From positions 1 to 64,000 of the forward strand of contig JAUNBA010000007.1 in assembly GCA_030527325.1 (NCBI GenBank): 64,000 nucleotides of DNA. Reading direction: 5' to 3'. Under the pieces are notes generated by a model. That model had not been told where the DNA came from. It made no database searches and worked only from the letters and a program-made list of their open reading frames with translations. The translations under genes and the position numbers were made by a program. Shown here in pieces: positions 47,227 to 51,328 of the stretch (positions within the stretch are counted from its first letter, which is position 1; each line of letters opens with the position of its first letter). The stretch is from Slackia sp. (GTDB lineage Bacteria > Actinomycetota > Coriobacteriia > Coriobacteriales > Eggerthellaceae).

Positions 47227-48009
47227 ATGTCCGACGCACGCACGGCGATCGCCTGCGCCCTCGCCGCGCTCGCATTGCTCGCCGCGCCCGCAGCCGCGTT
47301 CGGCGCGGAATCGCAAGACCGCACGAGCATCGACGGCGCGGCCGAAGCCCTGCGCAACGAGCTCGAACCGGCCATGCCCTCGTTCGAAACCCTGCAGGAG
47401 CAGCGCGCGGAAAACGGGCGCGACATCGGCAACGCCCGCGTGCAGGGCCTGCAAGACGTCATGTACGACGGCAACGAAATGCGCCCCACCATCACGCTGA
47501 AGCTCGACGACGCCACGCTGGTCGAGGGGACCGACTTCGACGTGACCTTCACGGGCGATATCGTCGATCCGGGCGACGTGGCCGTCACCATCACGGGCAA
47601 AGGGTCCTACACGGGCTCGATCGAAACAGGATTCACCATCCTGCCGGGAGACCTCGCCTACGCCACCGTGGACGTCATCCCCGACCAAGAAGCGACAGGC
47701 GAGCCCTTAACGCCCGCGCCCCATGTCGAACTGGAAGGCAAGACTCTGGTCGAAGGCGTGGACTACCTGGTCTCTTACACCGACAACATCGACAAGGGCA
47801 CGGCGGACATGACCATCACGGGCATCGGAAACTGCACGGGGCTCAAGCATGCCTCCTTCGAAGTGCTCGAAGCACCCGAGACCAGCGTCTTCCAGGACGA
47901 ATTCGCCGCAGCCCTGCCGCTCATCGTCGGACCGGCCCTCGTTGCCGCCGTCGCCTTGGGCATCGTCGCGTTCACCCTCATGCGCAAAAAAACGCCGGGG
48001 GCGCGCTGA
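47227..48009 (+). CDS. Exported membrane-anchored protein with two Ig-like repeats
   Basis: A 260-residue protein. A signal peptide (cut about after AAAFGA), a helical spacer, two related beta-sandwich repeats (about 78-140 and 150-215) and a C-terminal transmembrane helix with RKK tail. Each repeat has the pattern L-x-D/E-G-x-x-L-V-E-G-x-D-Y/F-x-V-x-[YF]-T followed by G-x-A/V-x-x-T-I-T-G-x-G, common in surface proteins of gut Actinobacteria and Firmicutes. Start ATG 47227 follows GGGAGAAG. Function unknown; a surface or adhesion role is inference. It converges on copA, 29 bases away. Confidence 0.75.
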   Translation: MSDARTAIACALAALALLAAPAAAFGAESQDRTSIDGAAEALRNELEPAMPSFETLQEQRAENGRDIGNARVQGLQDVMYDGNEMRPTITLKLDDATLVEGTDFDVTFTGDIVDPGDVAVTITGKGSYTGSIETGFTILPGDLAYATVDVIPDQEATGEPLTPAPHVELEGKTLVEGVDYLVSYTDNIDKGTADMTITGIGNCTGLKHASFEVLEAPETSVFQDEFAAALPLIVGPALVAAVALGIVAFTLMRKKTPGAR

Positions 48010-48038
48010 CCCCTGGCGTCGCTGCGACGTCCGCGCGC

Positions 48039-48245
48039 CTATGCCATGGCGGCTTCGTAACCCTCCTCGGTCACGGCCGTCACCAGCGCTTCGTCGGCCA
48101 CGTCGGCCGCAAGCGTCACTGTGGCGCGCTTGCCCTCAAGATCGACCTCGGCCCGCTCGACGCCCTCTACGCCTTCGAGCGCCTTTTTCACATGCGCCAC
48201 GCAGCGCGGACACATCATGCCCTCCACATGCAGCGTCTTCTCCAT
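48039..48245 (-). CDS. copZ: Nested in-frame copper chaperone (CopZ-like) from an internal start in copA
   Basis: Inside copA, in the same frame, ATG 48245 is preceded by AAGGAGAGGAG at ideal spacing, the strongest ribosome site of the operon. Translation from it gives 68 residues, MEKTLHVEGMMCPRCVAHVK..., the exact size and motif of stand-alone CopZ chaperones. CopZ binds cytosolic Cu(I) through the CPRC pair and delivers it to CopA or CsoR. The full-length product also carries this domain. That the internal start is used is inference. Confidence 0.6.
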   Translation of the reverse strand: MEKTLHVEGMMCPRCVAHVKKALEGVEGVERAEVDLEGKRATVTLAADVADEALVTAVTEEGYEAAMA

Positions 48246-50702
48246 GCCTGACTCCTCTCCTTCATACGAATGGGCGAACCGCCCCTCCTCGCACCGTATC
48301 GCGCGGTCTACGCTCTCGTCGACCGCCGACGCAGGCAGCCGATCGACGCGCACCGCGGCCGCATCCGAGCCTTCCGCGCCGCGCGCACCTGAAGCATCCG
48401 TCGCGTCGTTTGCGACAAAATGCGGCTTCCACCTGCGTAGACGCAGAGCATTGCCCACCACGCACACCGAGCTGCAGCTCATCGCCGCCGCAGCGATCGT
48501 CGGCGTCAGCCCGATGCCCGCCCAAGCGAATACGCCCGCCGCCACGGGAATGCACACCGCATTGTAGACGAGCGCCCAGAAAAGATTCTGCTTGATGACG
48601 CGCATGGTGGCGCGCGAAAGCCCGATAGCGGCGGCCGCGTCCAGAAGATCGCTGCGCATCAGCACCACATCGGCGGCCTCCATGGCGATATCGGTGCCGG
48701 CGCCGATGGCCATGCCCACGTCGGCGCGCGCCAACGCGGGCGCGTCGTTGATGCCGTCGCCCACCATCACGACGCCCGCGCCCTGGCGGGAAAGACGCGC
48801 CGTCTCGCGCTCCTTATCGGCGGGAAGCACCTCGGCCATCACACGATCGACGCCGCAACGACGCTGCACCGCCGCCGCCGTGCGCGCGGCGTCGCCCGTC
48901 ATCATCACCGTCTCGATACCCATGGCCTTCAGCTCGCGCACCGCCGCGGCGCTCGTCGGCTTCACCGCATCGACCAGCGTCAGCAGCGCCTGCGCCGTGC
49001 CGTCGCATGCCACGAACAGCGCCGTGGCGCCTTCGTCGGCCGCGTCGGCGGCGGCAGCCGAAAACGGCGCGATATCCACGCCGCACGACGCCATCATGCG
49101 CTCGTTTCCCACCGTCACAAGCGCATCGCCGACGCGCGCCTCGATGCCCGCGCCCTCCGTCTGGTGAAACGCGCGGGCCGCAGGCACAACGACTCCTTCT
49201 TGCCGCGCGCAACGCACCACGGCCTGCGCCAAAGGATGCTCCGAAAACGCTTCAGCCGCGGCGGCCTTGCCGAGCACGTCGCCCCACGACGCCGCCGGCG
49301 CCAGCACCGCACGGCTCACCGACGGCGCGCCCTCGGTGATGGTGCCCGTCTTGTCGAGCAGCGCCACGCGGGCCGCATGCGCCGTCTGCAACGCCTCGGC
49401 CGATTTGACCAGGATGCCCGAACGGGCGCCCCGCCCCATAGCCACCATGACGGCCGTCGGCGTCGCCAGGCCGAGCGCGCACGGGCACGAGATGACCAGC
49501 ACCGATACCGCATGCATCAACGCCGTCTCGAAGCCCGCCCCTAAAAACAGCCAAACGCACAACGTGACCAGGGAGATCGCCATGACCGCAGGCACGAACA
49601 CGCCGCTGATCCTATCGGCGGTCTTCTCGATGGGCGCCTTCGATCCGGTCGCTTCGTCCACCATGCGGATGATGCCCGCGAGCACGGTATCGTCGCCGAC
49701 CCGCTCGGCACGCAGGGCGATCCAGCCCGCGCGCACCGTCGTGGCCGCCGACACCGCATCGCCCGGATTCTTTTCAGCGAACACGCTTTCGCCCGTGATG
49801 GCCGATTCATCCACCGACGCGGCGCCCTCGAGCACCACCCCGTCCACCGGAACCGCGCACCCCGTCTTCACGACGAGCACATCGCCGCGCGCCACCTCTT
49901 CGACGGGCACGTCGCGCTCGCCCTCGGGCGTGCGAAGCAGCGCGGTCTTCGGCGACAGATCCATCAGCGAGGTCACGGCATCGGTCGTCTTGCCCTTGGC
50001 GCGGGCCTCGAAATACTTGCCCAACGTGATAAGCGTCAAAATCATGGCGGCCGACTCGAAATACAGCCCCATCGACGCCTCGGCCGCGGCCGCCACATCG
50101 CCCGCTCCCAACGAGAAGCACATGCCGTACAGCGTCCAGACGCCGTATGCCAGCGACGCCGACGACCCCAACGCGATGAGCGAATCCATATTGGGCGCGC
50201 CGCGCAGCAGGTTGCCGAACCCGTTGGAGAAATACTTGAAGTTCACGAACACCACGGGAAGCACCAGCAAAAATTGCGTGAACGCGAACGCGAGCGCCCC
50301 CGATGGCGCCGCCAGAGCGCCGGGCAAAGGCCAGCCCGCCATATGGCCCATGGACAGGTAACACAGCGCGACGCCGCATACGATGGACACCGCCAGACGC
50401 AGCCGCATGCGGCGCTCTTCGGATTCGGCCGTCGCCCGAGACGACGCGCCGGCGCGGACGGCGGCCGTCGAGTGCGCTTCGCGAACCGATGCGCCATACC
50501 CCGCATGCTCGATAGCAGCGCAGACGGCCTCGTTCACGCGGGCGGAATCGATGGCGGCGCCATCGTCGTAGGACAATTCCATGCTGTTCTTCAAAAGGTT
50601 CACGGACGCATCCGCTACGCCGTCGACCCCGCGCGCAGCCTTTTCCACGCGTGCGCTGCATGCAGCGCACGACATGCCCGTGATATCGAAGACCTGTTTC
50701 AC
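48039..50702 (-). CDS. copA: Copper-translocating P1B-type ATPase with N- and C-terminal HMA domains
   Basis: An 887-residue copper exporter of the inner membrane. HMA domain 1 is MKQVFDITGMSCAACSARVE at the start (Cys12/Cys15). The membrane part includes the Cu-binding SCPCALGLATP, with the phosphorylation motif ALLDKTGTITEG and hinge VGDGINDAPALARADVGMAI. After the last helices and a linker, a second HMA domain (about 820-887) carries GMMCPRCVAHVKKAL, which resembles a CopZ fused on. The GTG start at 50702 is chosen for GAGGAGGGG upstream; longer starts lack one. csoR lies 64 bases upstream as the first gene of the operon. Confidence 0.94.
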   Translation of the reverse strand: MKQVFDITGMSCAACSARVEKAARGVDGVADASVNLLKNSMELSYDDGAAIDSARVNEAVCAAIEHAGYGASVREAHSTAAVRAGASSRATAESEERRMRLRLAVSIVCGVALCYLSMGHMAGWPLPGALAAPSGALAFAFTQFLLVLPVVFVNFKYFSNGFGNLLRGAPNMDSLIALGSSASLAYGVWTLYGMCFSLGAGDVAAAAEASMGLYFESAAMILTLITLGKYFEARAKGKTTDAVTSLMDLSPKTALLRTPEGERDVPVEEVARGDVLVVKTGCAVPVDGVVLEGAASVDESAITGESVFAEKNPGDAVSAATTVRAGWIALRAERVGDDTVLAGIIRMVDEATGSKAPIEKTADRISGVFVPAVMAISLVTLCVWLFLGAGFETALMHAVSVLVISCPCALGLATPTAVMVAMGRGARSGILVKSAEALQTAHAARVALLDKTGTITEGAPSVSRAVLAPAASWGDVLGKAAAAEAFSEHPLAQAVVRCARQEGVVVPAARAFHQTEGAGIEARVGDALVTVGNERMMASCGVDIAPFSAAAADAADEGATALFVACDGTAQALLTLVDAVKPTSAAAVRELKAMGIETVMMTGDAARTAAAVQRRCGVDRVMAEVLPADKERETARLSRQGAGVVMVGDGINDAPALARADVGMAIGAGTDIAMEAADVVLMRSDLLDAAAAIGLSRATMRVIKQNLFWALVYNAVCIPVAAGVFAWAGIGLTPTIAAAAMSCSSVCVVGNALRLRRWKPHFVANDATDASGARGAEGSDAAAVRVDRLPASAVDESVDRAIRCEEGRFAHSYEGEESGMEKTLHVEGMMCPRCVAHVKKALEGVEGVERAEVDLEGKRATVTLAADVADEALVTAVTEEGYEAAMA

Positions 50703-50765
50703 ATACCCCTCCTCGCACACATAGGACGCGGCGGGCTGCTCCAGCACACGGCCCGCCGCGCGCTT

Positions 50766-51080
50766 CTACATGAATTTCCTGATGAGACCCATGACCTCGT
50801 CGATCGACTCGAGATTTCCCTCGCGGACCTGCTCGACCACGCAGGTCTCCATATGCTCCTGCAGCAGCATCTCGGCCACGCGGTGGACCGCGGATTGCGC
50901 GGCGGCGAGCTGCATCAGCACATCCCCGCAATAGCGATTGTCGTCGATCATGGCCTTCACGCCGTTAAGCTGGCCGATTGCCCTGTTCAAACGCTTTTGC
51001 ACATCGGACTGAAGCGCTTCGCCGCGCGGCGTGCGCTTATGCCTGCACGCCTGGCAGCCCGAAGAATCCATCTCTTCCAT
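50766..51080 (-). CDS. csoR: Copper-sensing transcriptional repressor CsoR
   Basis: A 104-residue all-helical DUF156 repressor. The Cu(I) ligands Cys-(x)n-His-x3-Cys are present as NRYCGD and EHMETCVV, which indicates copper rather than nickel or formaldehyde sensing. The basic KRLNRAIGQLNGVKAMI helix matches the DNA-binding helix. Cu(I) binding releases DNA and switches on csoR-copA. ATG 51080 is used; another ATG lies three codons in. A palindrome that fits a CsoR site lies right on its promoter. Confidence 0.92.
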   Translation of the reverse strand: MEEMDSSGCQACRHKRTPRGEALQSDVQKRLNRAIGQLNGVKAMIDDNRYCGDVLMQLAAAQSAVHRVAEMLLQEHMETCVVEQVREGNLESIDEVMGLIRKFM

Positions 51081-51119
51081 GCCGTTTTCCCCTCTACGAC
51101 GGCCCCGTTCTTCGGGCCG

Positions 51120-51147
51120 ATTATATACCCCTTAGCGGTATATGCAA
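51120..51147 (-). promoter_or_regulatory. csoR-copA promoter overlapping a CsoR-type operator
   Basis: On the minus strand TTGCAT (51147-51142), a 16-bp spacer and TATAAT (51125-51120). The 7-bp inverted repeat ATATACC-N7-GGTATAT (51123-51143) covers the entire spacer and part of both boxes; CsoR sites of the TACCCC/GGGGTA type look like this. Confidence 0.8.
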
Positions 51148-51250
51148 GCAGCAGCCCATCCGCGGCGAAACGCCGATGAGCCCGCACGTAGCCGACACGA
51201 CCGAAGCGAGCACGCCCTGATGCGGCCGAAGCAATACGGGCCAGGACGCG

Positions 51251-51284
51251 AAAAGGCCCGCCGCGGCATACGCCGCGACGGGCC
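51251..51284 (-). terminator. Terminator after clpB
   Basis: On the minus strand GGCCCG-T-CGCGGC / GCCGCG-G-CGGGCC (arms 51272-51284 and 51255-51267) is followed by TTTT. It lies about 45 bases after the clpB stop. Confidence 0.8.
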
Positions 51285-51328
51285 GAAAAGCCGTTCTTTT
51301 CCGGCTTCTTTACAACAGAGGCTCCGTC

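Follow-up and report, generated by a model that had tools for sequence, protein, structure and literature searches.

A conserved start site inside copA is predicted to give a free CopZ-like chaperone from the gene of a copper pump

Can one copA gene supply both a copper pump and a free copper chaperone? In Escherichia coli, the CopZ-like protein CopA(Z) is reported to be made from copA by programmed frameshifting (PMC7558416, PMC10187127). The copA gene in the stretch of Slackia sp. DNA analysed here (the window, 64,000 nucleotides) raises the question in another form, as a second metal-binding domain at the C terminus of its product is preceded by a Shine–Dalgarno (SD) sequence and an in-frame ATG. 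From sequence comparisons, we conclude that this copA is very probably one gene with two products made by internal initiation.

Results

The window copA is located on the minus strand at 48039..50702 and encodes a Cu(I)-type P1B ATPase of 887 aa with a GTG start. The product matched TIGR01511, the NCBIfam model for copper-translocating P-type ATPases, with 526.9 bits (cut-off 397). The frame is open over 48039–50747 (minus strand; 902 aa for the whole ORF), and the GTG at 50702, with the SD sequence gaggaggg before it, is the likely start. Using Pfam, we identified E1-E2_ATPase, Hydrolase and two HMA stretches in the ORF: an N-terminal HMA with the motif MSCAAC (50496..50693, minus strand; 47.2 bits) and a C-terminal HMA with the metal-binding motif MMCPRC (48054..48236, minus strand; 58.3 bits). 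The latter covers residues 838–898 of the 902-aa ORF, and the first-pass annotation was thus right to place a second HMA at the C terminus of CopA. The ATPase domains, the HMA, the score above the cut-off of the Cu-ATPase model and ISCPCALGLATPT for the CPC motif assign the protein to the P1B-1 copper ATPases of CopA type. A hypervariable linker runs from the last transmembrane segment (after NALRLRRW) to the C-terminal HMA (48246..48453, minus strand; limits approximate), and a gene for a CsoR-type metal-sensing repressor lies directly upstream of copA on the same strand (50766..51080; PF02583, E 7.9e-27).

At the end of the linker is the candidate internal SD, AAGGAGAGGAG (48252..48262, minus strand), with a duplex energy of −8.8 and a spacing of 6 nt from GAGGAG to the ATG at 48245–48243. 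Reading from this ATG, MEKTLHVEGMMCPRC..., gives 68 aa up to the stop codon shared with copA (nested copZ, 48039..48245, minus strand). The C-terminal HMA starts three residues past the ATG and takes up residues 4–64 of the nested product (59.3 bits against a threshold of 24.8; E 5e-16), and solved CopZ structures (2qif and 1k0v) match residues 2–66. In size, single HMA and MxCxxC motif the product agrees with CopZ chaperones; its score against the CopZ equivalog NF047957 (NCBIfam) is 74.3 bits, under the cut-off of 85. The in-frame ATG and the 68-residue CopZ had been described in the first-pass annotation, and the description proved exact. The annotation had further spoken of re-initiation at the C-terminal end; the internal start is well supported by the comparison below, but independent internal initiation is the better description because copA has no stop ahead of the site.

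Taken singly, the window site is moderately unusual and no more, suggestive rather than compelling. An SD energy of −8.8 or better precedes 2.3% of the remaining internal Met codons of fused copA genes; within the window copA, it precedes 1 of the 28 others. On sequence grounds, it is the comparative evidence that lifts the site well beyond chance.

For this comparison, we gathered copA loci from named genomes and, around the window genome, at the levels of genus, family and order. They were made non-redundant by their last 300 residues and classed by script, truncated loci without ATPase motifs being dropped from the classing. Of the 138 genomes of the family, 116 gave a match at E <= 1e-100, and we read 94 loci (L004–L014, L061–L143), down to E of about 1e-166 plus two weaker ones; a lower-scoring group near E 1e-130, with about 42% identity and no C-terminal HMA in the match, lies beyond this sample. 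Across the order, a match at E <= 1e-170 was obtained in 269 of 395 genomes, and the 70 loci from outside the family consist of 40 from the best of the matches listed, from many genera, and 30 from 36, so that fused copies are favoured. The named genomes contributed 24 loci (L034–L057) of 27. The classing gave 122 non-redundant loci in which copA is fused and a Met stands where the HMA begins: 60 from the family, 44 from elsewhere in the order and 18 from named genomes (one Akkermansia, the other 17 Bacillota). Three loci were fused without the Met, 25 had a separate copZ just downstream (SEPARATE), and 38 rows had neither a C-terminal HMA nor an adjacent copZ (NONE), a class that takes in unrelated second ATPases and contig-end cuts. 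The 125 fused loci come from Coriobacteriia, Clostridia and one Akkermansia, and their counts are not independent events, as the loci are related and were collected by similarity to the query.

The internal site is kept in nearly all relatives that have the domain. The ATG is present in 122 of the 125 fused loci, and an SD energy of −5 or lower precedes it in 121 of these 122 (mean −8.21), the single miss being the Akkermansia locus L055. We scored the SD as duplex energy against an assumed anti-SD, with a match threshold of <= −5 kcal/mol; the corresponding 13-mer of the 16S 3′ end is missing from the assembly of the window genome but occurs, as a bare string match, in 4 of the 12 genomes from the genus. 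Among 3211 Met codons elsewhere inside the genes, 19.4% reached this threshold (mean −2.64), as did 26.5% of 4696 other linker codon positions, in comparison with 25 of 25 stand-alone copZ starts (mean −7.84) and 84% of the 122 approximate starts of copA itself. After the copA core was thinned to <65% identity, the SD was kept in 27 of 28 representatives. The distance from the AAGGAG register to the ATG is most commonly 6 nt (72 of 121; range 5–12), and the nested product measures 65–73 aa in 121 of 122 loci; the size of CopZ is given as about 70 aa in PMC7558416. In two Clostridia copies (L050 and L052) the stretch from Met to HMA is longer and the SD precedes the farther Met, so that SD and start have shifted together. 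The site thus combines an SD at start-like spacing and an ATG within the ORF with conservation beyond that of the peptide, and a copA with a second, built-in start appears to have been kept across many gut bacteria.

Conservation of this kind could arise if an acidic and basic K-E-G motif were kept for the sake of the protein and resembled an SD by accident. K, E and G are indeed enriched at residues −5 to −3. As a null for the observed SDs, we recoded the eight residues concerned synonymously 300 times, using each gene's own codon usage. Given such K/E/G-rich peptides, 82% of the recodings also reached an energy of −5, and much of the SD signal is therefore inseparable from the peptide. The observed mean of −8.21, however, lies beyond the mean of every null dataset (best −7.84, mean −7.29). 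The phase of the SD relative to the ATG is also variable, with 89, 21 and 11 of the 121 loci in the three codon phases, and the SD encodes differing peptides across loci (KE, KGE, EEG, ERS); it is therefore nucleotides, and not one peptide, that are conserved. Residue 0 is Met almost throughout, which no linker motif needs. Together with the openness of the mRNA described next, which likewise exceeds its synonymous null, these observations make a constraint on the peptide a highly improbable account of the site.

A working start site is usually marked by unstructured mRNA. In 60-nt windows, the predicted folding energy is about −20 kcal/mol at 100 nt to either side of the internal ATG and −8.5 at the ATG itself. 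Over positions −27..+36, the observed mean was −8.71, against −11.87 for synonymous recodings and −11.57 for the highest of 20 null datasets, and in 106 of 122 genes less structure was predicted than for the mean of the recodings. No such effect appeared in the ATPase core, where a control window gave −19.47 (−18.74 for synonymous recodings). The start is thus predicted to be open, and its sequence bears the mark of selection on nucleotides over and above the peptide.

The site could also be a relic, left when copA lost its stop codon and fused with a neighbouring copZ whose old SD and start linger unused. The 25 SEPARATE relatives have adjacent copA and copZ genes with similar SDs and, because such pairs exist, an origin by fusion is likely right as history. 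That the site has since lain idle is nevertheless very unlikely. The linker has been scrambled, with a mean identity of 17.5% in sampled pairs and lengths of 9–119 residues, against 55.9% mean identity for the C-terminal HMA, and yet SD, spacing and ATG are kept next to it; the synonymous sites, moreover, are biased towards SD strength and openness. The window's own clade, dominated by Eggerthellaceae, contains 48 FUSED and 2 FUSED_noM among its 50 rows, and its branches are far too long for passive retention. This clade is part of a FastTree phylogeny of 166 copA cores, including 16 NONE rows, on which fused and not fused states require 10 changes and the FUSED rows are far more clustered than in shuffled data (13 changes versus 39.0). 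As read from these sequences, the history of the fused copA is old and includes repeated losses or gains, the long-branch Bacillota rows being uncertain.

Some loci lying inside fused clades of the order (L234, L238, L239, L244 and L255) have a linker interrupted by a stop codon. L239 and L238, both from incomplete draft assemblies, have this stop in frame; beyond it lie an SD and an uninterrupted copZ of 69 residues that has kept the reading frame of copA. Such a stop would do no harm only if the downstream start worked. The tree fits fission and fusion alike for these loci. As a separate observation, L234 and L244 have inverted repeats between the separate copA and copZ, and the linker of the fused relative L262 contains a short inverted repeat of similar kind, translated as part of the frame; a small element, mobile or resembling a terminator, may be what splits or joins copA and copZ.

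A domain kept with its internal site lost had been named beforehand as one of the observations that would refute a nested copZ. It was seen in only 3 of the 125 fused loci (L011 in genome G004, L088 in G056 and L116 in G026), and all three genomes have a stand-alone CopZ-like gene. The SD is absent together with the Met: the strongest SD energy found up to four codons away is −5.9, −1.4 and −0.9, respectively. In G004 the stand-alone copZ, with its own SD and an HMA, lies directly downstream of copA, starting at L011:4233; the CopZ-like ORF of G056 is upstream of copA and that of G026 elsewhere in the genome. Among the 60 family genomes with the internal start, a stand-alone CopZ-like ORF was found in nine (G057, G058, G059, G063, G065, G077, G079, G099 and G111), which differs from the 3 of 3 site-loss genomes (Fisher P = 0.0055); the nested CopZ is therefore not always the sole one. 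These counts come from the non-CopA HMA matches in the 63 fused family genomes, all of which were read but six weak ones (one each in G063, G067, G068, G101, G107 and G108), of a class that elsewhere is a different protein. In the window genome, whose assembly is 85% complete, no further CopZ-like ORF was found, and its third HMA match is a different small protein, MRASFKLDEIDCANC.

Other small HMA proteins were noticed in the same genomes. A second conserved HMA-like ORF, MRKxFKLQDLDCANCAAKME, without the GMxC motif, is found in many family genomes (for example L166, at G000:C16:22667-24828, and L144, L146, L152 and L161) and lies just ahead of another P-type ATPase in the window genome and several others. 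ORFs of ~140–370 aa with an HMA at the end (L145, L158, L167, L170, L182, L196 and L202) have GGMTC..C or SGMTC..C after a ...YPY/YPF/YAY stretch. A few family genomes have a stand-alone HMA of the type IDGMMCGMCExHxxDAI (L168, L173, L177, L181 and L206), unlike the CopZ-like ones.

Two further routes to a free chaperone were considered. A promoter inside copA could give a short copZ transcript on which the same SD and ATG would serve. We found no sigma-70-type match on either strand of 47950–51300, in a type of scan that misses much in G+C-rich Actinobacteria; we regard such a promoter as unlikely and, with respect to the product, as a variant of internal initiation. Alternatively, the chaperone could be released by a protease cutting within the flexible linker, as long, disordered-looking linkers cleave easily, or by frameshifting after the N-terminal HMA as in E. 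coli. Both would leave the SD, the ATG, their spacing and the openness of the mRNA without an explanation, and we consider both highly improbable. Frameshifting of the E. coli type was rejected on its own account, as codons 1–140 of the copA frame contain no X XXY YYZ heptamer.

Discussion

If both starts are used, ribosomes starting at the GTG at 50702 would produce the pump of 887 aa, its C terminus bearing a chaperone-like HMA as a tethered domain, whereas ribosomes binding the internal SD (48262–48252) would start at the ATG at 48245 and make the free 68-aa CopZ. The internal initiation would take place on a presumed csoR–copA mRNA. We infer that the site is used in cells, with some ratio between the two products, and that the free CopZ would deliver cytosolic Cu(I) to CopA, a part played elsewhere by stand-alone CopZ.

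The frameshifting of E. coli copA to give CopA(Z) was reportedly described by Meydan and by Drees in 2017. The present gene is similar in that a single gene would give the pump and a CopZ-like chaperone of roughly 70 residues. The means differ: in E. coli the N-terminal HMA is released by a frameshift and an early stop, whereas here it would be the C-terminal HMA, through a second in-frame start. Internal in-frame starts are known from bacteria, including E. coli infB, clpB and cheA and others. As in those genes, a second SD and start within the frame would yield an N-terminally shortened isoform. Unlike in them, the shortened form would amount to a whole, separate functional domain of a type also known as a stand-alone protein, and genes built in this way recur across several families and phyla. 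The nested product resembles the stand-alone CopZ of Enterococcus hirae and Bacillus subtilis in size, GMxCxxC motif and HMA fold family, but those proteins have a gene of their own, and here the sequence is nested in copA. Archaeoglobus CopA, for which a structure of the C-terminal metal-binding domain is cited in PMC7558416 (reference 237), is likewise a P1B Cu ATPase that has an HMA domain at either end. We know of no claim of an internal start in it. A search of the open literature, with subscription papers mostly outside it, brought up no report of a copZ that starts within copA.

We consider it probable that a copA with copZ in its 3′ end is a widespread and ancient arrangement in many Coriobacteriia and Clostridia, each mRNA giving a pump with a tethered chaperone and, in an amount set by translation, a free one. 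The latter would be the only CopZ in most of these genomes, missed by annotation that enters each frame a single time. If this is true, there would be a second, mechanistically different route from one copA to pump and chaperone, and the frequent absence of a stand-alone CopZ from genomes with a fused copA (51 of the 60 family genomes examined) would be explained. Whole functional proteins nested in frame would then escape annotation, and these genes would offer a clean comparative case of selected nested starts, with natural fissions and losses as controls.
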